Position numbers and translations under genes: made by a program. Below, piece after piece: positions 1 through 12,355 of a stretch of DNA of 28,527 nt. The notes beneath the pieces were generated by a model. It made no database searches and was not told where the DNA came from. It was given only the letters and a program-made list of their open reading frames with translations. This DNA comes from a virus: IMG/VR virus record IMGVR_UViG_3300022591_000052, positions 1 to 28,527 of that record; one strand, written 5' to 3'. Within the stretch, counting starts at the first letter, position 1; the number at the start of each line of letters is the position of its first letter.

Positions 1-51
1 TAGTGCATAATCATTGGTACTTTTCGCTGCCGCTTGATGTAGTGACAGCAT
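1..51 (-). CDS. 5' end of an unidentified gene, cut by the window edge
   Basis: An ATG at 51-49 opens a frame that stays open to base 1 (17 codons, beginning MLSLHQAAAKSTNDYAL). It lies six bases after the TAA of the upstream gene and in the same frame, so it could be translated by coupling. I see no clear Shine-Dalgarno sequence. The other two minus frames are closed here. Too little is visible to name a function. Position in the operon of a Cas4-like nuclease suggests DNA metabolism, but that is a guess. Confidence 0.45.
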   Translation of the reverse strand, partial: MLSLHQAAAKSTNDYAL

Positions 52-57
52 CAGATA

Positions 58-447
58 TTATCGAACGAACTTAGGCTCGCACTGATCTGGAGTACCCTTT
101 GGCGATGGGCAGAACCAGCCCTTCCAAGCCTTTGGAGCGCCTGGCTTTGACTCACGCCATACCAAAGCACCATGCTTGCATTGTCCTTCAGGGAAGGATG
201 TTGGGCTGGAGTACTGCTGTACTGGGGCTGATGGTTGAGCCACAGGTGTAGCACCAAGAGATTGGATAGCGTGTTGGATGTTACCAGCATTGCCAAGGGC
301 AGCTGACACTGATCCAATAAGAGCAGCGGTGTCTTGAATAGTAGCCAAGCTACCTTCTAGTTCTGCTGGTGTTGCAGCGTAGATGTTGATAAGTGTGCCG
401 TCAGCCAACTTGAAGTTGACCTGCAGTTTTGTTCCTTCTGTTGCCAT
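58..447 (-). CDS. Small protein with C-terminal Cys/His cluster (actinophage-type, function unknown)
   Basis: This 129-aa protein has two parts. Residues 1-60 look like a compact domain (LQVNFKLADGTLINIYAAT, then helical). After a Pro/Gln/Ser-rich linker at about 68-86 comes a C-terminal cluster with C90, H92, C113 and C123 in the order CKHG...WFCPSPKGTPDQC, which could bind zinc. I recall similar CxHG...FCP.PKG.PDQC tails in small proteins beside Cas4-like nucleases in actinobacteriophages. Their role is not established to my knowledge; single-stranded DNA binding is possible. The gene starts one base after the stop of the nuclease gene, with a weak TAGGAA upstream, so the two are probably co-translated. 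Confidence 0.82.
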   Translation of the reverse strand: MATEGTKLQVNFKLADGTLINIYAATPAELEGSLATIQDTAALIGSVSAALGNAGNIQHAIQSLGATPVAQPSAPVQQYSSPTSFPEGQCKHGALVWRESKPGAPKAWKGWFCPSPKGTPDQCEPKFVR

Positions 448-448
448 G

Positions 449-1111
449 TTATTTTCCTATCGTTGCTAGTGGGTCGTATATTTGTGAAAGTTCTCCGCCT
501 ACAGAGTAGCAATAGTCGCGTACTCCGCAAGTACCACACATCATTCCGATGTTGGGTAAGTAAATCTCAGCTTCCAGTCCTCGTGCAAACTGCTCAAACA
601 ACTCAGTCATTACGGGAATTGTCCATCGTTCTAGTCCAGCGACTTCAATAAACTCTGCCTTGCGAGCAGAGTAATAAAAGCCACGGGTGGGGCGTACACC
701 AAATTGCATCTCCATACAACAGGCGTAGATGCCTAGTTGCATTGCGGAGTCGGGGGTGTAAGAGCCAGTCTTAAAGTCTACCACGGCAAGCTCACCTGTG
801 GGTAGCACAGCAATTAGATCCGCAAAGGCTTTGATAAGAACTTTACCAAAGTTCTGCATGAAACCAATTTCTACACCAGGCACACCAGTTTCAGTCTGCC
901 AAATCTCCATGTTGGATTGTTGCCATACATTGATGAAGTCAAAGAACATCTTGCGACCATTCTCATCCCACCATGCTTTATCTTCCTTGTTGGGATTAGC
1001 CTTAGTGGCTCTGCCACCAGTGCGCCAATCCATAGGATTGGAGCCAGTCTTGGTTTCGACTTCAGCAATCTGCCCAATGAAGGCTTCATCCCAGATCGTA
1101 TCCCAAGTCAT
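449..1111 (-). CDS. Cas4/AddB-like PD-(D/E)XK nuclease, C-terminal catalytic part (split gene, part B)
   Basis: This 220-aa protein carries the catalytic core of a RecB/Cas4-family nuclease: E81 (GVEIGF), D98 (KAFADLIAVL) and D112-F-K114 (VVDFKTG), followed by Q125 in MQLGIYA. The C-terminus has C192, C195 and C201, the C-x2-C-x5-C pattern that with one N-terminal Cys holds a 4Fe-4S cluster in AddB and Cas4 proteins. Such enzymes resect DNA ends in recombination or repair. The family's N-terminal helical part, with its Cys and His, is missing here and appears as a separate gene at 1867-1652. The start overlaps the preceding stop by 3 bases (TGA shared with the codon before), so it looks like a genuine start rather than a broken end. 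Residues 12-30 (IGQIAEVETKTGSNPMDWR) match where an intact homologue would continue after its N-terminal domain. Confidence 0.88.
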   Translation of the reverse strand: MTWDTIWDEAFIGQIAEVETKTGSNPMDWRTGGRATKANPNKEDKAWWDENGRKMFFDFINVWQQSNMEIWQTETGVPGVEIGFMQNFGKVLIKAFADLIAVLPTGELAVVDFKTGSYTPDSAMQLGIYACCMEMQFGVRPTRGFYYSARKAEFIEVAGLERWTIPVMTELFEQFARGLEAEIYLPNIGMMCGTCGVRDYCYSVGGELSQIYDPLATIGK

Positions 1112-1296
1112 TCGCTCACCGTGCCGTATACAATCTCAGCGGCTTTCTTTAAGCCAGCAATAATGTCAGCGTTGGTTTCAGACTCAGCTGCAACTTCGAT
1201 CCGTGCTGCCAAGTTCTTGCGCATAATGTATTCGGCTTCAACGAATGCACGAGTAAACGCATCCTTGCCTACAATCTTTGCTTTGCGACTGCTCAT
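1108..1296 (-). CDS. Hypothetical 62-aa helical protein
   Basis: I do not recognise this protein. It begins MSSRKAKIVGKD, with a basic first ten residues, and is otherwise rich in Ala, Glu and Ile, predicted mostly helical. I chose the ATG at 1296 because it overlaps the stop of the previous gene in a TAATG arrangement; a GTG two codons upstream is also possible. Its stop overlaps the start of nuclease part B. It is therefore inserted, in frame-independent but tightly coupled fashion, between the two nuclease halves. Being translated just before part B, it could be an accessory to the nuclease, but nothing in the sequence proves that. Confidence 0.72.
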   Translation of the reverse strand: MSSRKAKIVGKDAFTRAFVEAEYIMRKNLAARIEVAAESETNADIIAGLKKAAEIVYGTVSE

Positions 1297-1436
1297 TACC
1301 ACTCAACTCCTAGGTACATATTCAAGAACATTAGTTCGATGCCGTACTTGTCAAAGCGTAGAGCTACGCCAAAGGATGTACGAGAGGTGTACAGATAAAC
1401 GCTGTACTTCTTATTCTTAGTCAGATACTTATTCAC
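1296..1436 (-). CDS. Hypothetical 46-aa protein, GTG start
   Basis: This short ORF starts with GTG at 1436 and reads MNKYLTKNKKYSVYLYTSRT..., ending GVEW before a TAA that overlaps the next ATG. A good Shine-Dalgarno (GGAGAA) sits 4 bases upstream of the GTG, inside the end of the preceding gene, with an 8-base overlap. The protein is basic and rich in Tyr, and looks like a small beta-strand domain (YSVYLY, GVALRF, GIELMF). Function is unknown. The dense packing and start signal are the main support. Confidence 0.65.
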   Translation of the reverse strand: MNKYLTKNKKYSVYLYTSRTSFGVALRFDKYGIELMFLNMYLGVEW

Positions 1437-1650
1437 GCGATTCTCCTAACGGTGGGGTAACTGCGGTGGCGAGGCTACCACATAGCGCACAGTTGATGTC
1501 AAGGAAATAGATACCGATTTCTCCGTCATCGTCAAACTTACATTTGACCGACCATAAATCTGATCCGCATGGGCATACTCTGATTGGGCCAAGAGAACGG
1601 TAATCCGCTTCTGCGCCTTTGGTGGGTTTAAGGTTTGCAATGTCGTCCAT
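1429..1650 (-). CDS. Small zinc-ribbon-like protein (73 aa)
   Basis: The protein has two Cys pairs: C26-P-C28 in RVCPCGSDLW and C54-A-L-C57 in INCALCGS, plus C37. They flank a beta-rich acidic centre (FDDDGEIGIYFLDI). This spacing fits a small zinc ribbon. I recall similar CxCGS...C..CGS mini-proteins in actinophage replication and recombination regions, with no defined role. The ATG at 1650 follows the stop of nuclease part A by one base, so the gene is coupled to it. Its own 3' end overlaps the next gene by 8 bases. Confidence 0.8.
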   Translation of the reverse strand: MDDIANLKPTKGAEADYRSLGPIRVCPCGSDLWSVKCKFDDDGEIGIYFLDINCALCGSLATAVTPPLGESRE

Positions 1651-1651
1651 T

Positions 1652-1867
1652 CTAGAAAGGTGGCTCGTCTGTCATTGGTGCCTTAGAAGCCTCAAAGGTC
1701 TGCAACAAGAACTTTTCTGCTGCACTGTGGAATGCACTTCCACCAATAAACCACCAAGCAGGTTCGCTAGGTGCCTGTAAATTACGCTCCAACTGGAACG
1801 CCTTGCCACATCGTAGCCATGACGTGAAAGCTGAAAACGATCTATGTTGTATGGTTGTTTCTGTCAT
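1652..1867 (-). CDS. Cas4-like PD-(D/E)XK nuclease, N-terminal part (split gene, part A)
   Basis: The 71 residues read like the first domain of an actinophage Cas4-family exonuclease: S10-F-S-A-F-T-S-W-L-R-C20 (the lone Fe-S Cys of the family), then PAWWFIGGSAFHSAAEKF with the conserved His (H47). An intact enzyme would carry on to the catalytic Asp and Lys residues. Here the frame instead ends after a short tail (TDEPPF) with a TAG, and the remainder is encoded 540 bases away at 1111-449. The ATG at 1867 is the first gene after the regulatory region; a CATAGGC/GCCTATG repeat includes its start codon. I see no strong Shine-Dalgarno. It may be half of a two-subunit nuclease, or the remnant of a disrupted gene. 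Confidence 0.8.
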   Translation of the reverse strand: MTETTIQHRSFSAFTSWLRCGKAFQLERNLQAPSEPAWWFIGGSAFHSAAEKFLLQTFEASKAPMTDEPPF

Positions 1868-1972
1868 AGGCGGAGCGTAGCATTAGCCTATGCTCGGGTA
1901 GCAATTCGACACGCCGATGTACTTTGCCTATGTGGTTCGATTTGACATACGCCTATGGGGTATGTGTAAAAT
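1865..1972. promoter_or_regulatory. Regulatory region with repeated GCCTATG and a dyad operator candidate
   Basis: The heptamer GCCTATG occurs at 1886-1892, 1926-1932 and 1951-1957, and inverted (CATAGGC) at 1865-1871 over the start codon of the first gene. Around the third copy is a dyad, ACATAC (1945-1950) and GTATGT (1960-1965), with inner CC and GG also symmetric. The minus-strand operon at 1867 must be transcribed from this stretch or by read-through. A TTTACA (1970-1965 on the minus strand) could be its -35, but the matching -10 (TGTCAA) is poor. Regulation by a DNA-binding protein at the repeats is inferred. Confidence 0.5.
1942..1972 (+). promoter_or_regulatory. Candidate sigma-70-type promoter on the plus strand
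   Basis: A perfect TTGACA at 1942-1947 is followed, after 17 bases, by TGTAAA (1965-1970), or after 19 bases by TAAAAT (1967-1972). The spacer is the dyad described above, so a bound protein would block the promoter. It points right, away from the 1867 operon and against the holin gene. No convincing plus-strand gene follows, so the product may be a short noncoding RNA, or the match may be fortuitous. Confidence 0.35.
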
Positions 1973-2043
1973 ATGAGCGAAGCGAATGCGATACGGGTAG
2001 AGGCGGCAAGGCTGATAGCCTCCAACGGGTAAACGGAAACAAT

Positions 2044-2076
2044 AAAAAAGCCCCCCGCTGTTTAGGCGAGGGGCTT
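2044..2076 (-). terminator. Rho-independent terminator of the late operon
   Basis: On the minus strand, an 11-bp stem (arms 2066-2076 and 2048-2058, one G-U pair, G/C-rich) closes a 7-nt loop and is followed by a run of T residues to 2044. It lies about 20 bases after the holin stop. This is a textbook intrinsic terminator and marks the end of the structural/lysis operon. On the plus strand the hairpin has no following T tract. Confidence 0.93.
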
Positions 2077-2094
2077 AGTCGTTCTATTAAGTTG

Positions 2095-2343
2095 TTATTG
2101 TTTCACTGCTTCATCCGCCGCAACAAGTGCGTGGTTAGGAGCAGGGAATGTATCTGCTGGATTGACATAGCGGTAGATCAAAGGAACTACAGCAGCTACG
2201 CCAGCACCGAGAAGTGCTTTGATAGATGTGGTGTGATGCACGATGTATTCGGTAAGGATACCGCCGACAAGTACATGGAACCAAGCTGCGAGAATTGTCC
2301 ACACCTTTGGTGGGATGTTAATTAAATATTTGTTCTTTGCCAT
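2095..2343 (-). CDS. Holin, two transmembrane helices
   Basis: This 82-aa protein has two hydrophobic helices, at about residues 14-34 (VWTILAAWFHVLVGGILTEY) and 40-60 (SIKALLGAGVAAVVPLIYRY), joined by a short loop with two His. A basic N-terminus (MAKNK) and an acidic tail flank them. Size, topology and place directly after a CHAP endolysin fit a small phage holin, which permeabilises the membrane to release or activate the endolysin. I chose the ATG at 2343 because AAAGGAG stands 8 bases upstream; an in-frame start 13 codons earlier lies inside the endolysin gene and lacks a comparable site. It is the last gene before the terminator. The call is by topology and context, not by a family match. 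Confidence 0.85.
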   Translation of the reverse strand: MAKNKYLINIPPKVWTILAAWFHVLVGGILTEYIVHHTTSIKALLGAGVAAVVPLIYRYVNPADTFPAPNHALVAADEAVKQ

Positions 2344-2356
2344 ACGTGTTACTCCT

Positions 2357-2851
2357 TTAGGATGCCCACTTTGGGCTACCAAATCCTACCACGAATACAG
2401 GCAACTTCTTGGTGTTGGCCGCCTTGTAGGCTCTAATCTTCACACATACTTCTCCGCCATTGGCTTGGCTACCAGTAGGTTTCTTGTCTGGGCTGGTGTT
2501 GCCCTCGATGGTAGTTACTGTGCCATCTCCGTTGTCCTTGACAACTAGACCCACATGCTCGATGCCCTTGTTATCAAAGGTAAAGAATACGATGTCGCCT
2601 GGCTGTGGCTTGGCTGTCTCATGGTTAGACCATCTGCCCTGACCTTGAAAGCCAGTGGCTCCAGCGGGCGTATAGACGCAGTTAGGCATACCTTTGAACT
2701 TAACCTCATTGGCTAGCCACATTATAAAGGATCCGCACCATGGCATACCATCATGCTTGGTGAAGGCGCCGTACTTAGTCTTGTTGTTAGGTACCTCCAC
2801 GGTACCTACCTCAGCCTGTGCTTTGGCGAGGAAGTCTGCTAGTTGGCTCAT
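2357..2851 (-). CDS. Endolysin, CHAP-domain peptidoglycan hydrolase
   Basis: The 164-aa protein is essentially one CHAP (NlpC/P60-like) domain. The nucleophile is C39 in PWCGSFIMWL, the general base H99 in IEHVGLVV, and the third polar residue is probably E116 or N118 in TTIEGNTS. QPGDIVFF before the His is also typical. CHAP enzymes cut peptidoglycan as amidases or endopeptidases at the end of infection. No signal peptide and no separate wall-binding domain are seen; the last 30 residues (AANTKKLPVFVVGFGSP) complete the fold. The start overlaps the preceding stop (ATGA) and has AAGGA 8 bases upstream. A holin follows at once, so release is holin-dependent. Confidence 0.93.
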   Translation of the reverse strand: MSQLADFLAKAQAEVGTVEVPNNKTKYGAFTKHDGMPWCGSFIMWLANEVKFKGMPNCVYTPAGATGFQGQGRWSNHETAKPQPGDIVFFTFDNKGIEHVGLVVKDNGDGTVTTIEGNTSPDKKPTGSQANGGEVCVKIRAYKAANTKKLPVFVVGFGSPKWAS

Positions 2852-3159
2852 TGTTCTATCCTTGCTTTCATTACCTCAACGTCCACCTTGATGGATTGTT
2901 GGTTTTCGATTAAGGCATCTACCTTGTTGATAAGACCAGTCTTGCCATCGTTATAGAGCGCATACTCGATACGGCTAGTGCGCTTGTCCATTTCAGTAAG
3001 ACATTCCATCAGCGGCTTTAATTCCTCACGAAGTTCGATGAGATGGTTCTCTACCGACTTGTGTACTCCGTGCTTGAATAGTCTCCAGATACCGATGCCT
3101 GTTGCACAAGCTACAAAGAAGTATCCGTATACGCCATTGGCTATGTCTGCCCAGCTCAT
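2848..3159 (-). CDS. Membrane-anchored coiled-coil protein of the lysis cassette (holin-like)
   Basis: Residues 6-25 (IANGVYGYFFVACATGIGIW) form one N-terminal transmembrane helix. The rest is charged and heptad-like (VENHLIELREELKPLMECL, later INKVDALIENQQSIKVDVEV), predicted as a long coiled coil. Proteins of this layout often sit beside endolysins in actinophages and are called holin-like or membrane proteins; a pinholin, antiholin or spanin-like role are all possible. I use the ATG at 3159, four bases after the stop of the tail gene, with a modest AAAG upstream. A longer in-frame ORF to 3306 would overlap the tail gene heavily and is unlikely. The gene overlaps the endolysin start by 4 bases. 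Confidence 0.82.
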   Translation of the reverse strand: MSWADIANGVYGYFFVACATGIGIWRLFKHGVHKSVENHLIELREELKPLMECLTEMDKRTSRIEYALYNDGKTGLINKVDALIENQQSIKVDVEVMKARIEQ

Positions 3160-3163
3160 GTCT

Positions 3164-5377
3164 TTATACCGTTCTGATTTGTAGGACGATACGCCCACCG
3201 AAGCCAGTAAAGCGGCGCTCAGGGGGTGTCTCTCGGACGAAGGTAACGCTTTCAATGACACAGCGAACTGTCTCATTGTTGGTAAAGTCTTGGAAGATAA
3301 TGACATCTCCGCCAGACTCTAGCGTTTCTAGTTGAGATAGACGCTCAGAGGCACGACCTTCATATCCAACGGTCATGTTGTTCTTGTCGCCTTCAAAGTC
3401 GTAGTTGAGTAGTGGCACTGTGTAGATGCGTTGACGGCGTACTGCTGGCAGAGCCTTGAGTTGGTAGCCGTTGAATGAATCTTCTGTGCCTACTGCCTGT
3501 GAGGTAGCAGAGTAAAGAGTAAACTTTAAGCCAATAGATTCTTTTGGTGTTACATCGTATTGATCTAAACCAGTAATGTCTTGGGTGAAGTCAAAGCCGT
3601 TGGCTACAGTGATGATGTCGGTTACTGCGCCGTTGGCATCTACGCTAGAGAGTTGGAGTGAGCCAACCATCGGCGTGGTTTGACGCAGCTTGACCAATTC
3701 AAAGTGCTTGTCCTCAAGGGTGAAGTAGCGGATTTGTCCAGTTTGGATGTAGCCGTTTGCTACCAATGTGTTTGACTGAAAGTAGACGCCTACACCAGTA
3801 ACGCCAATAGCCAACTTGTTGGTTGTGCCAATGACGCATACTGTTGGTACTTCTGCTGTGCTAGGCACACGAAGGTGGGTAGCGTAAGCCATTTGGTTAG
3901 GAGTAATCTCACGGCTCAAGTCAATTTTGACTAAGCCAGATGAGTATGTGCCATCGCCATTGTCAATGTAGTTTGTCACTGTGCAGTAAGCAAAGCGGTC
4001 ATTGAAGGTGATGGACTTACACGGAGAACCGTTGAGGTTAGTTCCGCTTGCTGGATCATAGCCGTTGGTAATGACAGTGATTGGACCATAGGTAATGTAG
4101 CCAGAGGATACGAAGCCTGATGTATCAATCTGTCCTACACGAATACCCTTGCTGGTACCAAAGACCATGTACTTGCCGACATAAGAACCGAGGGCATAGA
4201 TACGCTCACCTTTGGGCATATCAGCTGCAGTTAGCGCCTTGGTGAGTAGCGGCACAGCGCCTGATGTATCGAGGGAAAGCCGATACACAGTAGATGAATC
4301 TCCAGCATAGCCTGCTGCATAGATAGCATTAGGGCCTTCACAAATGCCAGTCCAAACCCAAGTAGGATTAGGGTGTGCATAAATAGGAAGAGTATTATTA
4401 GAAGCAAGAACAACTGTTCCTGTTAATCCAGTACTAAATGCCACGTCTGCATTGTTATGGTAGAAAGAAACCTGTGTAGCGGAAGGAACTGCAGTAACTG
4501 ACCAAGTTCCATTGTAAGGAGAGGTTAGGCTGGCTATAGTAATCTGGCTACCTACTGATAAATTATGAGCAGTAGACGTAGTTAAAGTTGCTATGTTAGA
4601 AGCAAGCATGGCAGCATTAACAGCGTAAGAAGTAATAGGGGTTATTTCATACAAGTAATTATTGATACCTGCGATGATGCGCTGCTTAACCCAACTAAGA
4701 CTAACTGATGTAACAGTACCTACTGCTGATGGATGAGTGAAGATAGATGTACCAGATGTAGCCCCTGTTAGTGGGCCACGATAGATGCCAGTAGCATTTG
4801 CAGCGTAGTAATTAACACCATCTTGGGCTACAGCATAGATAGTTCCAGATCCGCCCCATGTCAGGGTGGTGGTTGTGCCAGCAGCAGTTGTGCGATAAAG
4901 GTTTGCACCGTCTGCCCAAATGACTACATCCACACCATTAGCATCTATGCCGCCTACTAGGATAGGAGCATTAGTTGCGCTGGCTTGCTTGGTGACATCT
5001 GGCAGTAGTGTTACTTTACCGATGTTGAATACGTCTACACCAGCAGACTTGTTAAAGCGCATACCAACAGTCTCGCCTTGGATTGGTTCTTCATAGCGGA
5101 TGCCTGCGCCGTAGTGGAATGAGGACTGGCTACGAAGCCACCAACCTGTGAGTGTCTGCTCGCCTGGTTCTTTTTGCTGGTCAATTTGTTGCTTACGGTA
5201 TTGAGCCGTTTCGCGCTTGTAAGGATATTCTTTGTTTGGGCCAATGAAGAACGGTAGTCCGCCTACGGCTACATCGTAGTTGTTGGCAGTATTCTCATAG
5301 GTAGTGCCGTTGTTAGGAGCTTGACCAACAGGAACAACTGGACGTTCTGCAATATGACGATTGCCTTGTAAAGTCAT
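3164..5377 (-). CDS. Large tail protein (737 aa), probable tail-tube/nozzle or beta-propeller tail component
   Basis: This is the largest protein of the tail module. The N-terminus has PNNGTTYENTANNYDVAVGGLPFF, then GEQTLTGWWLRSQSSFHYGAGIRY, a motif I recall from large tail proteins of actinobacterial phages. The middle (about 130-500) is a series of short beta repeats, for example ILVGGIDANGVDVVIWADGANLY and NYYAANATGIYRG, which look like propeller blades. The last 150 residues are again beta-rich and include a Glu/Asp/Asn stretch (ESGGDVIIFQDFTNNETVRC). In podoviruses, a protein of this size and content forms the nozzle (tail tubular B-like); in siphoviruses it could be a minor tail protein. 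AAGGAGA precedes the ATG by 6 bases. Confidence 0.78.
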   Translation of the reverse strand: MTLQGNRHIAERPVVPVGQAPNNGTTYENTANNYDVAVGGLPFFIGPNKEYPYKRETAQYRKQQIDQQKEPGEQTLTGWWLRSQSSFHYGAGIRYEEPIQGETVGMRFNKSAGVDVFNIGKVTLLPDVTKQASATNAPILVGGIDANGVDVVIWADGANLYRTTAAGTTTTLTWGGSGTIYAVAQDGVNYYAANATGIYRGPLTGATSGTSIFTHPSAVGTVTSVSLSWVKQRIIAGINNYLYEITPITSYAVNAAMLASNIATLTTSTAHNLSVGSQITIASLTSPYNGTWSVTAVPSATQVSFYHNNADVAFSTGLTGTVVLASNNTLPIYAHPNPTWVWTGICEGPNAIYAAGYAGDSSTVYRLSLDTSGAVPLLTKALTAADMPKGERIYALGSYVGKYMVFGTSKGIRVGQIDTSGFVSSGYITYGPITVITNGYDPASGTNLNGSPCKSITFNDRFAYCTVTNYIDNGDGTYSSGLVKIDLSREITPNQMAYATHLRVPSTAEVPTVCVIGTTNKLAIGVTGVGVYFQSNTLVANGYIQTGQIRYFTLEDKHFELVKLRQTTPMVGSLQLSSVDANGAVTDIITVANGFDFTQDITGLDQYDVTPKESIGLKFTLYSATSQAVGTEDSFNGYQLKALPAVRRQRIYTVPLLNYDFEGDKNNMTVGYEGRASERLSQLETLESGGDVIIFQDFTNNETVRCVIESVTFVRETPPERRFTGFGGRIVLQIRTV

Positions 5378-5385
5378 GCTTCTCC

Positions 5386-5463
5386 TTAGATTATTCCTGC
5401 ATATTCAAATTGATCTACCGCATCATCAATCGTGCGGTGCCAGTCAGATGTCTCGTACAGCAT
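5386..5463 (-). CDS. Tiny coupled ORF (25 aa)
   Basis: An ATG at 5463 overlaps the stop of the glycine-rich gene in a TAATG arrangement and opens a 25-codon frame reading MLYETSDWHRTIDDAVDQFE, then YAGII. Its TAA lies against the AAGGAG of the next gene. It fills the only gap between these two genes. The sequence is acidic and amphipathic, not what random DNA usually gives, but no family is recognised. It may also act only to keep ribosomes running into the tail gene. Confidence 0.5.
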   Translation of the reverse strand: MLYETSDWHRTIDDAVDQFEYAGII

Positions 5464-6266
5464 TAAAAATTTATTGTGCCAGTTCCTGCTGTAATTTTGT
5501 AGACTTTATACCCAGAGCGAGATGAGGTATCTAGTGTGTAAGTTAAGCCACCACTAATAGTTGGACTGCGATAGCCTGTTGGATAAGCAAGAATAATAAC
5601 TCCAGAGCCACCTGCTCCTGGTGCAGTGCTACTGCCTCCGCCACCACCACCTGTATTTGCAGTACCAGATGTTCCGTTAGCGGCACCACCGCCACCTAAT
5701 CCGCCTGCTGGTGCAGCGTTATATCCAATACCGCCACCACCACCAGCGTAGTAAGTAGATGCTCCTGTGATAGATGAAGCTAAACCAATTCCACCATAAC
5801 CATTGTTTGAGTTATCTGATGTGCTATTTCCTGCAGCACCAGCACCGCCACCGCCACCGTTAGATGATCCTGGACCTGAGTTGTTGTAACCATGTCCACC
5901 AGCATTACCTTGACCAGTAACGCCACTACCACCATTCCAATAGTTACCTATGCCAGAAGCATAAGATCCACCAGCGCCGCTACCACCGTTTCCGCCAACA
6001 TTGTTAAATGCGGCAGCGCCACCACCATATGTGGTTATGCTTGCAAATATTGAATTGTTACCAGTTGTTCCAGAGCTAGTTCCACCAGTACCACCTGCGC
6101 CAATAGTGCAAGTATATGCAGTGCCAGGAGTGATAGAAAGTGTACTTGTAAGTAAACCGCCTGCACCGCCACCTGGGTAAGATGCACCACCTCCGCCAGC
6201 GACAACAAGATACTCAACACTGGAAGGGGCTGGTAAACCAGCCGCTAATATTCCTAGTATTCTCAT
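5463..6266 (-). CDS. Glycine-rich adhesin-like tail protein (third paralogue)
   Basis: About one third of this 267-aa protein is Gly. Runs such as GGGGG alternate with Asn, Ser, Thr and Tyr from about residue 23 to 215, as in glycine-rich phage adhesins where poly-Gly sheets carry variable loops that touch the host surface. The start VEYLVVAGGGGA and the end GGLTYTLDTSSRSGYKVYKITAGTGTINF match the same places in the protein at 11431-10484, so both share a first strand and a C-terminal module. The N-terminus (MRILGILAAGLPAPSS) is only weakly hydrophobic and not a clear signal peptide. The ATG overlaps the preceding stop (TAATG). Receptor binding is inferred from family. Confidence 0.85.
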   Translation of the reverse strand: MRILGILAAGLPAPSSVEYLVVAGGGGASYPGGGAGGLLTSTLSITPGTAYTCTIGAGGTGGTSSGTTGNNSIFASITTYGGGAAAFNNVGGNGGSGAGGSYASGIGNYWNGGSGVTGQGNAGGHGYNNSGPGSSNGGGGGAGAAGNSTSDNSNNGYGGIGLASSITGASTYYAGGGGGIGYNAAPAGGLGGGGAANGTSGTANTGGGGGGSSTAPGAGGSGVIILAYPTGYRSPTISGGLTYTLDTSSRSGYKVYKITAGTGTINF

Positions 6267-7006
6267 TATTGAATATCGCCGACCAAAGTGAATGTGTTTG
6301 AGCCAGTGCAGATAATAGAAGCAGCGCTGTATTGTGTACGCAACTTTGTTCCTGTGCCTGTAAAGGTAGAAGTTCCATCGCCAGCAACGGTTACTTGGCC
6401 TGCGCCAATTTGCTGGATGTTGATAATTTGTCCAATGGAAAATATGGCAGATGGAATGGTTAGCGTAATTGCAGATGAGTTAGATAAGGTAACTAACTTT
6501 GCTGCATCAACTGCTACTAATGTGTAGGTTGTTCCAGTTTGAGCGTTAATACCTACGGTAATAATAGGGGCTGTACCAAAAACCAATGAGCCAGAACCTG
6601 TCTCGTCAGAGACTGCCGATGCTAGGTTGGCTGAGGTTGGTGTACCTAAGAAAGTTCCAATAGAACCAGTGATGCCGTGTACTCCACCAGGGCCAGCAGC
6701 AATATGATCCTGAGTATCGGTTAAGTCCTGAGCCACAATAACGTGGCGAACTGTTGCACCTACGTTGTGGGCTTGAGCTGATGTGCCGTTGAAGCCACGA
6801 GTAATGGTTAGGCTGGTGCCAGAGGCAGCAGTAACAAGTACTAGTTCCTCTGCGGATGTATCGTAATCAAGGGCTAGGACATAAGGGAATGACCCTGGCA
6901 ATCCCACTGGTGAAGCATTAAGAATAACCGTTGTTGCTGAACTGTTAATAGCAGAACCAACAGTGTTATCAACAGCAATCGCGGAGTAGTATCGTCTTGT
7001 TGCCAT
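6266..7006 (-). CDS. Tail fibre / tail-tip protein (246 aa)
   Basis: The N-terminal 90 residues (AINSSATTVILNASPVGLP, ELVLVTAASGTSLTITRGFNG) resemble a small beta domain that also occurs near the start of the next upstream gene product (TATTFVVADGTVLTRG...), suggesting a shared attachment fold. Next come QDHIAAGPGGVHGI and FLGTPTSANLASAVSDETG, a segment common in phage fibres. The C-terminal 90 residues (LTIPSAIFSIGQIINIQQIG...TFTLVGD) form a beta-rich knob. GAGGA stands 7 bases before the ATG. The protein probably links the tail tube to the glycine-rich adhesin encoded directly after it. Confidence 0.85.
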   Translation of the reverse strand: MATRRYYSAIAVDNTVGSAINSSATTVILNASPVGLPGSFPYVLALDYDTSAEELVLVTAASGTSLTITRGFNGTSAQAHNVGATVRHVIVAQDLTDTQDHIAAGPGGVHGITGSIGTFLGTPTSANLASAVSDETGSGSLVFGTAPIITVGINAQTGTTYTLVAVDAAKLVTLSNSSAITLTIPSAIFSIGQIINIQQIGAGQVTVAGDGTSTFTGTGTKLRTQYSAASIICTGSNTFTLVGDIQ

Positions 7007-7015
7007 AGGTTATCC

Positions 7016-7906
7016 TCAGCTTGTGTAGTGGGTACGGGGTGGATATTGCTCTTGCAAACGGCGTACTTCGACAAGTAGACGTTGCTGGTACATCTGTTGT
7101 AAGACTCGGCCAATGTTTGTTGCAGAGCCGATTGGATCATTGCCTTGCTGTGCATCTGCTTCAGCAGTAGCAGCAGGTACACGGCCCATGTCAAGATACA
7201 TAGCGGTACGGTAAGCCGCACCAAGGATAATTACTTCACGGGCTGAATCAGATAGACCCGTCATAGAAAAGTCATCAGTATCATATTGAAGCGGTGTTGG
7301 CTTCTTTGTATATGTTACCTGAATAGTACGACCAGGGATAATACCTTCACGGATGGAAATGGTCTTGCCAGTATTCCATGTGGTTGGGTTAGCCATGCGG
7401 TCAATACGATAGTGGCGAACTGGTAGCCATTCACGAGATGGTCCAATGGTACGCCATGAGATGCCAAGAACATCCACTGCTTCTTGTGGAAGTGGGTAAG
7501 TAGTTACCGCAGCTTGGAAGGTGAACGTGGTGTAGTACGTTCCGAATAAATCTGGGTACACCCCGTCTATGGCAAGGTTGAGGTTACGGCGGATGACAGA
7601 TCGCGGAAAGGAGGGCGTGATTGTCACACGAGTACCAGCAGTATGAGTGGTGGCTACTGTGTCTCGAAAGCCTCTGCCATAGGCGGGGATAGTTGCCGTA
7701 TTAGTTGTACGGTCAAACTTGTCTACCCAAATAAGTTCATCGTCAATTTCGACCAAGCCTCTAGTAAGAACCGTTCCATCGGCAACAACAAAGGTTGTCG
7801 CAGTTGCGCTTAGCGCCGATGTAAGAAAAGTGGCTTGGTCTTGACGATTGGTGTAACCAGTCAGCGCAAGGCTTGTCTCGTTAATTAAATCAATAAATGC
7901 CGTCAC
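7016..7906 (-). CDS. Tail-tube A-like / head-tail adaptor protein (296 aa), GTG start
   Basis: The first 100 residues carry a beta domain (TATTFVVADGTVLTRGLVEIDDELIWVD) ending in GRGFRDTVATTHTAGTRVTI. The centre (RSVIRRNLNLAIDGVYPDLFGTYYTTFTFQ...TYPLPQEAVDVLGI) and the helical C-terminus (SDSAREVIILGAAYRTAMYLDM...IGRVLQQMYQQRLLVEVRRL) resemble adaptor or tail-tube A proteins that dock to the portal. It is placed before a large beta-propeller-like protein, the usual order for a podovirus tail-tube A/B pair. The GTG start overlaps the preceding TGA by 3 bases (GTGA). The assignment rests on layout and general features; no exact family is claimed. Confidence 0.72.
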   Translation of the reverse strand: MTAFIDLINETSLALTGYTNRQDQATFLTSALSATATTFVVADGTVLTRGLVEIDDELIWVDKFDRTTNTATIPAYGRGFRDTVATTHTAGTRVTITPSFPRSVIRRNLNLAIDGVYPDLFGTYYTTFTFQAAVTTYPLPQEAVDVLGISWRTIGPSREWLPVRHYRIDRMANPTTWNTGKTISIREGIIPGRTIQVTYTKKPTPLQYDTDDFSMTGLSDSAREVIILGAAYRTAMYLDMGRVPAATAEADAQQGNDPIGSATNIGRVLQQMYQQRLLVEVRRLQEQYPPRTHYTS

Positions 7907-8178
7907 GATGAAATCCTCGATGCTGCTTCAGCCTCACCTAAGCCAGTGGTTCCAGCTAAGGCATTAAAGGCGCCTGGTGTGTCATAATAATAATTTTTGC
8001 CGCCATTGCGGTAAGCATAAATCTGGTTAAGGGCATCAATGCCTCGGCTGTACCTTTTACCTGTAACGTTAAACGCCCAGATCTGTGCTGCTCCATTGAA
8101 GTCGTATTGAGGTACACCATTAAGGATGGTGCCTGCCAATCTATTCAGATGGTATACCGTTGTTAAACTAGTAGCCAT
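7903..8178 (-). CDS. Small virion-associated protein (91 aa), function unknown
   Basis: The 91-aa sequence has an aromatic middle (QIWAFNVTGKRYSRGIDALN and YAYRNGGKNYYYDT) and ends in NALAGTTGLGEAEAASRISS. AGTTGL...AA tails like this are known to me from several phage tail and fibre proteins. It sits just before the adaptor-like gene and overlaps its start. GGGAAAGGG lies 6 bases before the ATG. A structural role is likely from position only. Confidence 0.75.
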   Translation of the reverse strand: MATSLTTVYHLNRLAGTILNGVPQYDFNGAAQIWAFNVTGKRYSRGIDALNQIYAYRNGGKNYYYDTPGAFNALAGTTGLGEAEAASRISS

Positions 8179-8203
8179 AGATACCCTTTCCCTAGAAAAT
8201 TAC

Positions 8204-8326
8204 TTACTTGTTCTTTGTTCCGCCAACGCCTTCATACTCTCCGTATGGAGACTTAGTTGGCTTGCCTGTCAACTTATCAGGTGTACCACCGACTGCATTC
8301 TTATTGCATCCGCACTGTACGCACAT
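8204..8326 (-). CDS. 40-aa Cys-containing mini-protein
   Basis: The ORF reads MCVQCGCNKNAVGGTPDKLT then GKPTKSPYGEYEGVGGTKNK. The N-terminal C-x2-C-x-C could bind a metal; the rest looks disordered and basic. AAAGGAAAG is 5 bases upstream of the ATG, and the gene lies in the gap between two coupled mini-genes and the 91-aa gene. MCxxCGC mini-proteins are frequent in actinophage structural operons. No function is known to me. Confidence 0.72.
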   Translation of the reverse strand: MCVQCGCNKNAVGGTPDKLTGKPTKSPYGEYEGVGGTKNK

Positions 8327-8630: not shown

Positions 8631-9071
8631 TTAGGCTACCCCTGTCTCTTTCATTACCTTTGCACTTTGCTTGGTAATAGTGGATGCCGCTGGCATAGAC
8701 TCAGCATTGAATGCCGAACCTAGTTTGTCGCTTGCGGCTTTGGCTTCGTTAATAGCCTTCATTGTTGTGCCTGCTGGTTGGATGCCTTCTGATCTGGCAT
8801 CGCGGTAAGCGGCTAATTCGCCATCCCATTTCTTTGCTGACATATGCTCAGCACGGGCGGCATCTCCTGCACCTAGTTCGAGGGTGCGTATCTTGCAGCC
8901 AAAGCAGCCATCAACATAACTATCATGGTTAACATGATCCGAGATGACTTCTTCGGTTGGGAAAGCCTCAAGAGAACGGATGTCGCAACCGTCACACAGG
9001 TAGACGGAAATCCAATCAGCTTTCTCATTTAGGCCGAACTGTATTTCTTTTAGATTGTGTTTGTGAGTCAT
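8631..9071 (-). CDS. Conserved actinophage-type protein with two CxxC pairs (146 aa)
   Basis: The N-terminal half has LCDGCDIRSL and, after about 28 residues, DGCFGCKIRTLELG, two C-x2-C knuckles that probably hold one zinc. The part after the second knuckle (AEHMSAKKWDGELAAYRDAR, then SEGIQPAG) matches a motif family I know from many Mycobacterium and Gordonia phage proteins (CFGC(K/R)...W...L.AY...R..G.QP). The C-terminal 40 residues are Ala/Ser-rich. The gene overlaps the end of the glycosyltransferase gene by 47 bases; the CxxC motifs require a start in that overlap. AGGAAAG is found upstream of the ATG. Role unknown. Confidence 0.83.
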   Translation of the reverse strand: MTHKHNLKEIQFGLNEKADWISVYLCDGCDIRSLEAFPTEEVISDHVNHDSYVDGCFGCKIRTLELGAGDAARAEHMSAKKWDGELAAYRDARSEGIQPAGTTMKAINEAKAASDKLGSAFNAESMPAASTITKQSAKVMKETGVA

Positions 9072-10110
9072 TCTTCACTTTCCTAAAAAAGTCTAAGTTG
9101 CGTTGGATACGCTCAGTCTCAGGGCCATTGCCCCGAACTGCTCCCGCCGCAAAGGTTATGGCTTCGTCAATATGTCGAAGGTTGTAAGCGCTGATGCTGG
9201 CAAGGTCTGCTGCTTTCCAATCCCAGACAGCGGATTCGTAGCAGTAATGCGTGGAACGAGTACGTTCCAAAGCGTTAATAGAAGCATCTAAACACCTTTG
9301 CCATTGGTTCTTACGGTAGGCATCTACCGCAACTCCGTACCACGGCTCGCCTTCTAAGGGAAGAATTTTTACACCTTTGTCAAACCATGCAGTTGAGTCT
9401 TGCTCTAGGTTATGTGCTGACTCTCCAGCCCATCGGCAGACTGCTGCTCGTTCAACATCCCACCCATCGCAGGCTAGCTGCTTTTCCGCTGAGTCAATAA
9501 CATCTTGCCAGCGTTGGGCGAAATAATATTCTCTCGTCATGTAGGTCCACATACGAGCATCGTTAGGATTCTCTTTGACTGCCATCTTTAGCAGTCCAAG
9601 GTATTGCCCACGAGATTTGTTGTTGTCAGGCTGGTGGCTAATCTTTGCTTCAGGTATGTTCACATACCGAGCATCTCCACCTTTATACCAATAAGGTACC
9701 TCGTGGCAAGGATACTTCCAGATCCAGCCGTAGCGGGAGTGGAGTTTGTCCTTTTGCCATGTAGAGCCTGTATCAAAAGATACCCAAGCGGCGTTAGTCT
9801 CTAACGTCCACTTCTTGCGTATCTTATCGAAGAAGCCTGGTTCACAGACTTCATCCATATCTAGATATAGACAAGCTTCTGCATCTGCTGGCAATAAAGC
9901 CAGTGATGCGTTACGAGCCATATCAAATCTAAATGGGTCGAAGTGAGATTCGTAGACCGTCACTCCTAATTCTCGGAGCTTATCTACTGTACCGTCTGTA
10001 GATCCTGTATCGAGGACTACTCGGTAATCGGCATCTTTAGTTGTCTCTGCCCATCGCTCACAATGAAGTATCTCATTTTTGGCAATGGAGTATGCGACAA
10101 TCTTGGGCAT
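9025..10110 (-). CDS. Glycosyltransferase family 2 (SunS-like) with C-terminal helical repeats
   Basis: The N-terminal domain is a GT-A fold: VAYSIAKNE (5-13), VVLDTGSTDGT (31-41), FRFDMARN (60-67) and the metal-binding LDMDE at 83-87. Such enzymes transfer a sugar from a nucleotide sugar to protein, lipid or modified DNA. Residues from about 170 onwards are helical and TPR-like (PNDARMWTYMTREYYFAQRWQDVI, WRQ-type repeats), as in protein-glycosylating GTs with peptide-binding repeats. The enzyme acts in the cytoplasm; a likely target is a virion protein such as the fibres encoded nearby, or the host surface. TAGGA lies 8 bases upstream of the ATG at 10110. Its end overlaps the next gene by 47 bases. 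Confidence 0.9.
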   Translation of the reverse strand: MPKIVAYSIAKNEILHCERWAETTKDADYRVVLDTGSTDGTVDKLRELGVTVYESHFDPFRFDMARNASLALLPADAEACLYLDMDEVCEPGFFDKIRKKWTLETNAAWVSFDTGSTWQKDKLHSRYGWIWKYPCHEVPYWYKGGDARYVNIPEAKISHQPDNNKSRGQYLGLLKMAVKENPNDARMWTYMTREYYFAQRWQDVIDSAEKQLACDGWDVERAAVCRWAGESAHNLEQDSTAWFDKGVKILPLEGEPWYGVAVDAYRKNQWQRCLDASINALERTRSTHYCYESAVWDWKAADLASISAYNLRHIDEAITFAAGAVRGNGPETERIQRNLDFFRKVKNDSQTQSKRNTVRPK

Positions 10111-10127
10111 ACCGCAATCCTATCACA

Positions 10128-10484
10128 CTAGGCTGTAGGTGCGTCTGGAATTATCTGCCAGTTTAGATCAGCTTCTACCCAATGGTAGAACTTACCGTCT
10201 GTTGGATAGGGAGTTGGTGCTTCCCAGCGAAAAGCATCATTGAGTACCCACGATGGGAAAGGCTGTGGAGCGATGAACGCATCCTTTGCCTCGTCATAGG
10301 AGTAACCAATACCTGCATAGTTCTTACGGATATTTCCGTTGTAGGAAGTGCGTACACACTTTTGTCCACGGAAGTCGCCATACCATTGCTCAGGGGTTAG
10401 CCCTTCAATAGTTTCAGTTTCGTCTATACCGACAATTACTTCGGTAACGATATTGTTTGAATCGAGAAATGCGTAGTGTGCCAT
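10128..10484 (-). CDS. Conserved small virion protein of cyanophage/pelagic-phage type (118 aa)
   Basis: The sequence starts MAHYAFLDSNNIVTEVIVGI, continues with CVRTSYNGNIRKNYAGIGYS (about 43-62), YDEAKDAFI and PFPSWVLN, and ends with repeats of W/P/D. I recognise this pattern from a widespread protein of marine and freshwater phages in which RKNYAGIGY and FI.P.P...W are conserved; it is usually found beside tail-fibre genes. Its biochemical role is not known. The ATG overlaps the stop of the glycine-rich gene (TAATG). Confidence 0.85.
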   Translation of the reverse strand: MAHYAFLDSNNIVTEVIVGIDETETIEGLTPEQWYGDFRGQKCVRTSYNGNIRKNYAGIGYSYDEAKDAFIAPQPFPSWVLNDAFRWEAPTPYPTDGKFYHWVEADLNWQIIPDAPTA

Positions 10485-11431
10485 TAGATTGTCACCGTTC
10501 CTGTTCCTGCTGTAAAGGTATACACTTTGTATCCTGTTGGTGTAGTTTTAGTATAAGTAAGTCCAGCGCCAATAGAGGTTAAATCTGCATAAGTGTTTGC
10601 GTAGCGAATAACTACTATTCCTGAGCCGCCAGTAGCACCATAGCCACCACCACCTACGCCACCTCCACACACGCCACCGCCTGTATTTGCGGTTCCTGCG
10701 GTATTTACAGCACCACCTCCATAAGAGGCAGAGCCATTTCCTCTGTCGGAGGCACCAGCGCCACCACCAGCATATTGAGTAGATGTTCCAGAGATAGAAC
10801 AAGAAATTCCAATTCCGCCTACTCCACCGCCACCACTTGAACCGTTGCCACCAACGCCGCCTGCTCCACCACCGCCACCTGCAGAAGCATAACTTGCAAA
10901 GTCGGTTGCGGAACTACCACCACGATAACCTTGGTTTGTTGTTCCAGCACCGTAAGGACCTAAATCTCTACCTCCGCCACCGCCTGAACCACCAGTGCCT
11001 CCAGTATTTGTATATTGAGAACCATAGCCACCACCAAGTGATGTTACTGTAGAAAATACAGAGTTATTTCCACTAGTTGCTAATGCTCCACCAGCGCCTA
11101 CTGTTACAGTAAATGATGAAACTACGGTAAGGGCTGACTCTAATGTTCCTCCGCCGCCAGTTGCAGTTACAGTTGAACGAAGTCCACCAGCACCACCAGC
11201 ACCAGTTCTATCACCAACATAAGAACCTCCACCGCCAGCAATTACAAGATAATCTAAAGTTAAACTTGGAGCAGTTGCTCCAGCAGCAGTCCATACTCCA
11301 GCAGCATTCCAAGTGAGCATCTGCCCAAGAGTTGTATCGTAATACATCATTCCTGTAAATGGTGAAGCAGGGCGATTGGCTGTTGTGCCAATGCCAAAAC
11401 CTGACTTAGATAAATCTCTAGAGCGTGTCAT
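10484..11431 (-). CDS. Glycine-rich adhesin-like tail protein with fibre-anchor N-terminus
   Basis: Residues 1-55 resemble a fibre attachment segment (SGFGIGTTANRPASPFTGMM, then YYDTTLGQMLTWN...GVW). From about 60 (LDYLVIAGGGG) to 285 the protein is Gly-rich with GGGGG runs separated by Ser/Thr/Asn/Tyr loops. It closes with GAGLTYTKTTPTGYKVYTFT, then AGTGTVTI, the same C-terminal module as in the protein at 6266-5463. Glycine-rich sheets of this sort present host-binding loops in known phage adhesins. GGAGGA plus TAA stand right before the ATG (stop and start adjacent). Probably a receptor-binding protein or an exchangeable tip. Confidence 0.87.
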   Translation of the reverse strand: MTRSRDLSKSGFGIGTTANRPASPFTGMMYYDTTLGQMLTWNAAGVWTAAGATAPSLTLDYLVIAGGGGSYVGDRTGAGGAGGLRSTVTATGGGGTLESALTVVSSFTVTVGAGGALATSGNNSVFSTVTSLGGGYGSQYTNTGGTGGSGGGGGRDLGPYGAGTTNQGYRGGSSATDFASYASAGGGGGAGGVGGNGSSGGGGVGGIGISCSISGTSTQYAGGGAGASDRGNGSASYGGGAVNTAGTANTGGGVCGGGVGGGGYGATGGSGIVVIRYANTYADLTSIGAGLTYTKTTPTGYKVYTFTAGTGTVTI

Positions 11432-12355
11432 TTATCCTCCAACTTGAGAGCGTGTATAGCGAACAATAATAATTCCCGAGCCACCACTACCACCTGATGA
11501 TACAAGTGAGTTTGTTCCTCCGCCGCCTCCACCAGTATTTACAGTACCAGAAGTGCTTTGCCCACCACCGCCGCCCAAGCCACCACCGCTTGAATTAACT
11601 GCACCACCACCGCCTGCGTAGTAGTAATGACTGCTAGAAAGTTGTCCAGTAGAAGTCGCTGCACCCATTGTATCAATAAAAGCATATGGTCCAGCAGACC
11701 CACCAACAGTTGTATTGTAAGTTGCGCCATTTCCTCCAGCACCGCCAGAGCCACCACCACCAACACCATTTTGTCCTACTGCCCCGGCGCCACCACCGCC
11801 ACCGTTGTAAACGCCACCACCATTATTACCTTGGCCAGCAGTTCCATTACCAACAGTAGAAATACCACCGCCACCACCAGAACCGCCATTGCCTCCTGGC
11901 TCCCAGCCAAATGTTGCACCTACTGCTTGTCCATTGCCGCCACCAACTGCTGCAGTTAAAGAACCAAGTTGTGAATTAACGCCATTAGTTGAAGAACGGG
12001 AATTGTAAATTGCTCCAACTCCACCTGCGCCTACTGTAGCGGCATATGTTCCAGCCGTCATAGTTTGAGAAGCATAACCGACTAAACCGCCAGCGCCACC
12101 ACCTGCTGCACCAACACCATTGTTAGCACCACCACCACCACCGCCGGCAACAGTAAGAATATCCATTGTAACTGAGCCGCCAGAAACAACTAAGTTAGAA
12201 GTTACAGTAAATGCTCGATAATAATATGTTGCATCTGAATACAAAGTTCCGCCTGTAACAGATGGAGTAAAAGACGGATTGCCTGCCAACATATCACTAT
12301 ATCGAGCAAGGGATTTGAATCCGCCTGCGTTAGACATTTTGAATATTTCGGTCAT
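11432..12355 (-). CDS. Glycine-rich adhesin-like tail protein (307 aa)
   Basis: A short N-terminal domain (about 1-60, FKMSNAGGFKSLARYSDMLA and later DATYYYRAFTVTSN) is followed by MDILTVAGGGGGG and a long Gly-rich section to the end (GGSGGSGIIIVRYT). It shares the (I/L)(T/V)(V/I)AGGGGG entry strand and the SG(I)I(I/V)V(R)Y exit strand with the two other glycine-rich proteins, but lacks their LTYT...GYKVY tail. The ATG at 12355 overlaps the previous stop (TAATG); a second ATG six codons on is possible. Likely part of the host-recognition apparatus. Confidence 0.85.
   Translation of the reverse strand: MTEIFKMSNAGGFKSLARYSDMLAGNPSFTPSVTGGTLYSDATYYYRAFTVTSNLVVSGGSVTMDILTVAGGGGGGANNGVGAAGGGAGGLVGYASQTMTAGTYAATVGAGGVGAIYNSRSSTNGVNSQLGSLTAAVGGGNGQAVGATFGWEPGGNGGSGGGGGISTVGNGTAGQGNNGGGVYNGGGGGAGAVGQNGVGGGGSGGAGGNGATYNTTVGGSAGPYAFIDTMGAATSTGQLSSSHYYYAGGGGAVNSSGGGLGGGGGQSTSGTVNTGGGGGGTNSLVSSGGSGGSGIIIVRYTRSQVGG

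Follow-up and report, generated by a model that had tools for sequence, protein, structure and literature searches.

A Cas4/AddB-like phage exonuclease that is probably built from two separately translated subunits

The window analyzed here, a phage contig of 28,527 nucleotides (28.5 kb), encodes a Cas4/AddB-like nuclease in two open reading frames, A and B. These very probably specify two subunits, translated separately, of a single PD-(D/E)XK exonuclease belonging to the "iron-staple" type. The subunits would be made from one operon and would co-fold into a heterodimer. Within this, A would supply the N-terminal helices, the first Fe-S cysteine and the motif I histidine, and B would supply the catalytic aspartate, the Asp-x-Lys motif, QxxxY and the C-terminal Cys-x2-Cys-x5-Cys array. 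A metal cluster ligated by one cysteine from A and three from B would then staple the two chains, and the most likely task of the assembled enzyme is the trimming of DNA ends during replication and recombination of the phage. Nucleases of the Cas4/AddB type are known as single chains, in which a single metal cluster clamps the N-terminal part to the C-terminal part (PMC3466216). In AddB and Cas4 this iron staple consists of four cysteines, one near the N-terminus and three toward the C-terminus, and is needed for stability, such that the loss of any of the four renders Sso0001 insoluble (PMC3466216).

Subunit A (71 amino acids; 1652-1867, minus strand) corresponds to the N-terminal part of the exonuclease. 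It contains Cys20 (codon 1808-1810), the putative first Fe-S ligand, and His47 (codon 1727-1729), the histidine of motif I, which is found within GGSAFH. Subunit B (220 amino acids; 449-1111, minus strand) represents the remainder of the nuclease and harbors Asp98 (818-820), the Asp112-Phe-Lys114 motif (Asp112 at 776-778 and Lys114 at 770-772), Gln125xxxTyr129 and Cys192-x2-Cys195-x5-Cys201 (536-538, 527-529 and 509-511, respectively). An earlier sequence-only reading of this DNA had named these residues, apart from Gln125xxxTyr129, and had described each part as having its own start and stop and as coupled to its neighbors, and its coordinates, reading frames and residue assignments all proved correct.

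Both ORFs belong to the same family. They match consecutive parts of PHROG_1870 (A at 14-71, 2e-5; B at 77-296, 8e-32) and of PHROG_69 (A at 82-142, 5e-10; B at 158-323, 3e-12), and A does not fall into a different family. Against PF12705 (PDDEXK_1), B is aligned at 75-246 with a score above the cut-off (4e-12), and A at 3-50 gives a weak match below it (E 0.01). Each also matches actinophage proteins annotated as "Cas4 exonuclease" or "exonuclease". Taken together, A and B display the profile match of the Cas4-like/PF12705 phage exonucleases of PHROG_1870 along with the motif I His, the motif II Asp, the motif III D/E-x-K and QxxxY, as well as the one N-terminal and three C-terminal cysteines, the latter spaced C-x2-C-x5-C, of the iron-staple nucleases (AddB, Cas4, Dna2 and Exo5). 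The exception is that these elements are spread over two ORFs, at 159 distinct loci, rather than residing on one polypeptide, a state that is usual among iron-staple nucleases but is not chemically required. Aligned to unsplit homologues, A stops at the point where B takes over. Between His47 and the N-terminal Trp of B lie 20-32 residues in four split proteins (those of the window, phage LanE43AprF5, L037 and L111) and 19-27 residues in the five fused ones compared, which argues that no sequence has been lost at the cut.

The genes of the window lie mostly on the minus strand and include those for terminase, portal, major head protein, tail and lysis functions. The portal is 46-50% identical to the portals of LanE43AprF5 and AprE7, which are cultured phages of Planktophila (PMC10202952), making a host among the freshwater Actinobacteria likely. 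Elsewhere within the window, three minus-strand proteins (5463-6266, 10484-11431 and 11432-12355) match one and the same part of PHROG_2295, a family of unknown function, and represent paralogue repeats in the tail region. A beta-1,4-glycosyltransferase-like gene (9025-10110, minus strand; PHROG_13126, E 5e-78) is situated amid the structural genes.

On the minus strand, the lysis genes are followed by a hairpin, A, three small ORFs (z1, z2 and z3), B and then a gp49-like gene. The hairpin (2048-2076, minus strand) is terminator-like, with an 11-pair stem containing eight G-C pairs and a T run as its tail, and its position between the lysis genes and A makes it probable that A opens a transcription unit of its own. 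Thereafter the genes are tightly packed, with a single base between the stop codon of A and the ATG of z1, followed by overlaps of 8, 7 and 4 bases; the 4-base overlap is the ATGA through which z3 runs into B. The gene that follows B (58-447, minus strand; 129 amino acids) resembles gp49 of mycobacteriophage L5, on the basis of matches to PF25690 (2e-5, at 25.1 bits against a cut-off of 27) and PHROG_364 (1e-5). A gp49-like gene also adjoins B in LanE43AprF5 and in L103, a longer relative, where the counterpart matches PHROG_364 at 5e-6. The region upstream of A (around 1868-1885) is without a Shine-Dalgarno-like sequence and B has one; of 107 gap-type relatives, defined below, 25 have a motif resembling a ribosome-binding site ahead of A and 96 have one ahead of B. 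As the first gene of its unit, A may be translated from a leaderless mRNA.

To place the pair among its relatives, viral contigs were scanned with A, B and their profiles, giving 255 loci from which duplicates were then removed. A and B are separate ORFs at the 159 distinct loci mentioned above and form a single ORF at 12; the search for the same split in related genomes, suggested with the sequence-only reading, is thus positive. Every B locus with at least 1 kb of upstream sequence has A upstream on the same strand (212 of 212, of which 200 are separate and 12 fused), and in each of the six loci with A only, the contig ends less than 600 bases downstream of A. Cys20 and His47 are invariant in all 155 A proteins, and Asp98, Asp112, Lys114, Gln125, Tyr129, Cys192, Cys195 and Cys201 are invariant in all 154 B proteins; the tail of A past about residue 58 is poorly conserved. 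Pooled dN/dS values, calculated over the same 223 locus pairs, are 0.123 for A and 0.117 for B, and these matched values were used in place of an unpooled median for A of 0.26, which included saturated pairs. A and B are thus under equal purifying selection, and A, whose decay in relatives had been raised as a concern, is not degenerate.

A search of 22 phage records with PF12705 (mostly 33-50 kb in length, with the isolate LanE43AprF5 among them) found half-matches but no third, intact copy; in some of these the B half alone exceeds the search threshold, and A is recognized there by its own profile. No relatives were confirmed in the genomes of bacterial species. Phages with the split nuclease form a large group, most of which probably infect freshwater Actinobacteria. 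As judged from these comparisons, the split is no fresh lesion and is long-maintained, although it is dispensable for function in the family, given that intact single-chain relatives exist.

The split loci are found in two layouts. The overlap layout is seen at 47 loci, where the end of A runs 1, 4, 8, 11, 14, 17 or 20 bases into the start of B and no other gene intervenes; examples include LanE43AprF5, with 17 bases, and L037, with an ATGA junction. In the gap layout, seen at 112 distinct loci including the window, A and B are separated by 168-749 bases of small ORFs. The window contains three of these on the minus strand. The first, z1 (1429-1650; 73 amino acids), is Cys-rich and, by eye, zinc-ribbon-like (CPCG...CxxC); its family is present in the gap of 99 of the 112 loci, and it has no match in Pfam or PHROG. 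The second, z2 (1296-1436; 46 amino acids), is optional and its family is found in 27 of 112. The third, z3 (1108-1302), encodes a helical-looking protein of 64 amino acids or slightly fewer, overlaps B through ATGA and belongs to a family found in 109 of 112. Both z1 and z3 could be nuclease partners. In another lineage (L164 at 3739-3987, and the gaps of L169, L170 and L149), the same site is occupied by a different small ORF that overlaps A as well as B and is weakly similar to z3 (hhalign probability 9%).

The presence of three small ORFs between the halves in the window, and of gaps of 168-749 bases at 112 distinct loci, is what would be seen if the gene had been broken by insertion of small ORFs (1112-1651 in the window), leaving the halves as remnants without nuclease function. 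This was the alternative offered by the sequence-only reading, and we regard it as extremely improbable. The nuclease is split without any insert in 47 relatives, which are spread across the other main branches of the tree, and both halves are held at a dN/dS of about 0.12 with their catalytic and cysteine residues invariant. Moreover, neither half was found alone where the DNA was long enough.

The tree also bears on the order of events. The overlap layout occupies most branches outside the clade of the window, and gaps with other small ORFs are seen separately in the lineages of L164, L149 and L117, from which it appears most likely that the split came first and the intervening genes later. 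The intervening genes of the window are probably such later additions, and not the cause of the split, given the 47 loci that are split with nothing in between. One overlap-type pair, L111/L112, is sister to the clade of the window in a quick tree and lies inside that clade, with weak support, in a more careful one; the latter position makes a loss of the insert in this pair possible. A single origin of the split has a p-AU of 0.06, a value that neither establishes nor rejects it. Two long-branched single-chain nucleases, one in L120 (865-1704) and one in P. acnes phages (L098), are placed by the tree within the split group and may represent re-fusion or more than one split.

Two ORFs could nonetheless yield one A-B protein, through RNA splicing of the gap, programmed frameshifting or bypassing. 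Self-splicing introns often interrupt phage genes (PMC3653736), and where A and B overlap, a single slip close to the stop codon of A would fuse the chains, with 26 of the 47 loci being of the +1 type. The overlap frame varies among relatives, however, such that 19 loci at -4 and two at -1 would need a -1 shift and 26 would need a +1 shift; hence no one frameshift is conserved. In the gap layout, the interval varies from 168 to 749 bases in length and holds conserved protein-coding ORFs, and in the window, where A and B share a frame, 18 in-frame stops lie between them. An Rfam search of window positions 1-4000 gave no intron match, Pfam gave no intein match for the gap ORFs, and in the overlap layout there is no gap for an intron or intein to occupy. 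A single protein is, on this evidence, quite improbable. As a rule for the group, a spliced or FRAMESHIFTED A-B product was rejected, with B in the -1 frame at 21 loci and in the +1 frame at 26, no intron family matching and 18 in-frame stops in the window.

The likely arrangement of the two separately translated chains was explored with AF2, in which window A, a read-through spacer and B were modeled as a single chain with 29 paired read-through rows in the matching frame. The pLDDT is mostly 76-94 in A and mostly 77-97 in the core of B, is below 50 in the spacer, and the pTM is only 0.58. As one unit (1-456) and in one alignment, the model superposes on AdnA with a Z score of 14.8 (221 residues, 3.5 Å). 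Z scores for the same A+B unit are 14.2 with AddB, 13.4 with ACE1 (an Argonaute-associated Cas4-family protein), 12.4 with Dna2 and 11.2 with the Cas4 protein SSO0001. A second model, of the distant lineage L169, has a pTM of 0.71 and superposes on AdnA with a Z of 15.9 over 226 residues; the predicted viral protein that it matches best is the Propionibacterium phage Procrass1 exonuclease. In the predicted A+B superposition the N-terminal helices pack on the core as in the iron-staple fold.

These models support the placement of A and B together in a Cas4/AddB fold, as single-chain pseudo-complexes with an artificial spacer, rather than multimers, in which the shared alignment rows could steer the placement of A relative to B. 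At the level of a pseudo-complex, they support the sequence-only proposal that the two chains assemble. A zinc version of the iron-staple fold exists in 3L0A (PMC3466216), and the metal in the predicted A-B cluster may be either Fe-S or zinc. Every check put forward with the sequence-only reading that has been run favors its preferred two-chain interpretation, from which we infer assembly, an Fe-S cluster and activity.

The surroundings of B offer a guide to function. In L103, B is followed by the gp49-like gene and by ORFs for a DnaB-like helicase, a RusA-like resolvase and primase, and P. acnes phage P9.1 has a similar neighborhood. With such neighbors, the A-B enzyme is likely to have a role in end-processing during replication and recombination. 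The downstream DNA primase of L103 is itself present as two overlapping ORFs (6242-6604 and 6459-7094), an arrangement shared with P9.1, where gp31 and gp30 are both annotated as DNA primase. The replication region of L103 also contains a match to the HslV-family peptidases (7660-8232; PHROG_1040).

We lean, with some reserve, toward a broader proposal: that the nuclease is an obligate two-chain enzyme in which a single Fe-S cluster, ligated 1+3, acts as an inter-subunit staple and possibly as an assembly or redox switch; that this state has become fixed throughout a major group of freshwater actinophages; and that small co-translated genes have repeatedly inserted at the split site. A long-maintained, natural two-chain clamp would provide a direct way to probe the purpose of the staple, and a two-chain nuclease allows one to ask whether assembly gates activity and how split-gene enzymes persist. 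The nuclease can also be missed in phages of freshwater Actinobacteria, because its halves are scored singly. Tests can make use of a phage and host already in culture, LanE43AprF5 and Planktophila LanE-43.

The closest known relatives are the single-chain Cas4 exonucleases of cultured actinophages, including Propionibacterium phage P9.1 gp36, Rhodococcus phage Takoda gp56 and Gordonia phage Looper gp81, which share the family (PHROG_1870/PF12705), motif order and cysteine ligands. The neighbors in P9.1 and Takoda are also similar to those seen here (a DnaB-like helicase in both and primase in P9.1). All three of these nucleases are one chain, whereas that of the window is two. A phylogenomic study of Cas4 described a clade of Cas4-like proteins from mycobacterial and Propionibacterium phages, and the word "split" is absent from it (PMC5704561). 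The nuclease domains of AddB and AdnA have the same predicted fold over A+B (Z 14-15), and AdnA shares the C-x2-C-x5-C spacing. These domains are, though, the C-terminal parts of large helicase-nucleases, in contrast to the small, stand-alone nuclease encoded here by two genes. The CRISPR Cas4 proteins Sso0001 and Pcal_0546 are alike in fold and four-Cys arrangement, but CRISPR genes do not adjoin A/B, and B scores 29.6 bits with TIGR00372, below the NCBIfam cas4 cut-off of 65.

Enzymes encoded by two adjacent phage genes are known, chiefly among the ribonucleotide reductases, such as nrdA-a/nrdA-b of Aeromonas phage Aeh1 and nrdJ of Thermus phage phiYS40 (PMC3653736). These are a different enzyme, and many of the splits trace to homing endonucleases, introns or inteins (PMC3653736), none of which is seen at A/B. 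Within the open-licence papers searched, there was no description of a catalytically intact, two-gene nuclease of the Cas4/AddB type, and a split of such a gene with all catalytic residues retained, as in the roughly 150 relatives here, appears to be previously undescribed.

The sequence-only view that a split phage Cas4 would be undescribed does need qualification, as a viral Cas4 gene in two pieces, the nearest precedent, is known from the archaeal Thermoproteus tenax virus 1 (TTV1), in which TP1 carries the first cysteine and gp7 the other three (PMC4625639). There the N-terminal half has been repurposed as the nucleocapsid protein TP1 (PMC4625639), a precedent for the idea that A and B have likewise ceased to form a nuclease and serve separate purposes, with A, for example, binding DNA or acting as a regulator. 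We consider such repurposing very improbable here: A and B always co-occur, and every catalytic and cysteine residue is invariant in both halves, as would be expected only if A and B still act together. The two systems also differ in the state and position of the break: TTV1 Cas4 is inactivated, is cut within the QhxxY motif and has lost catalytic residues, including a Glu (PMC4625639), whereas A and B are cut between the motif I His and motif II and keep all of the catalytic residues.
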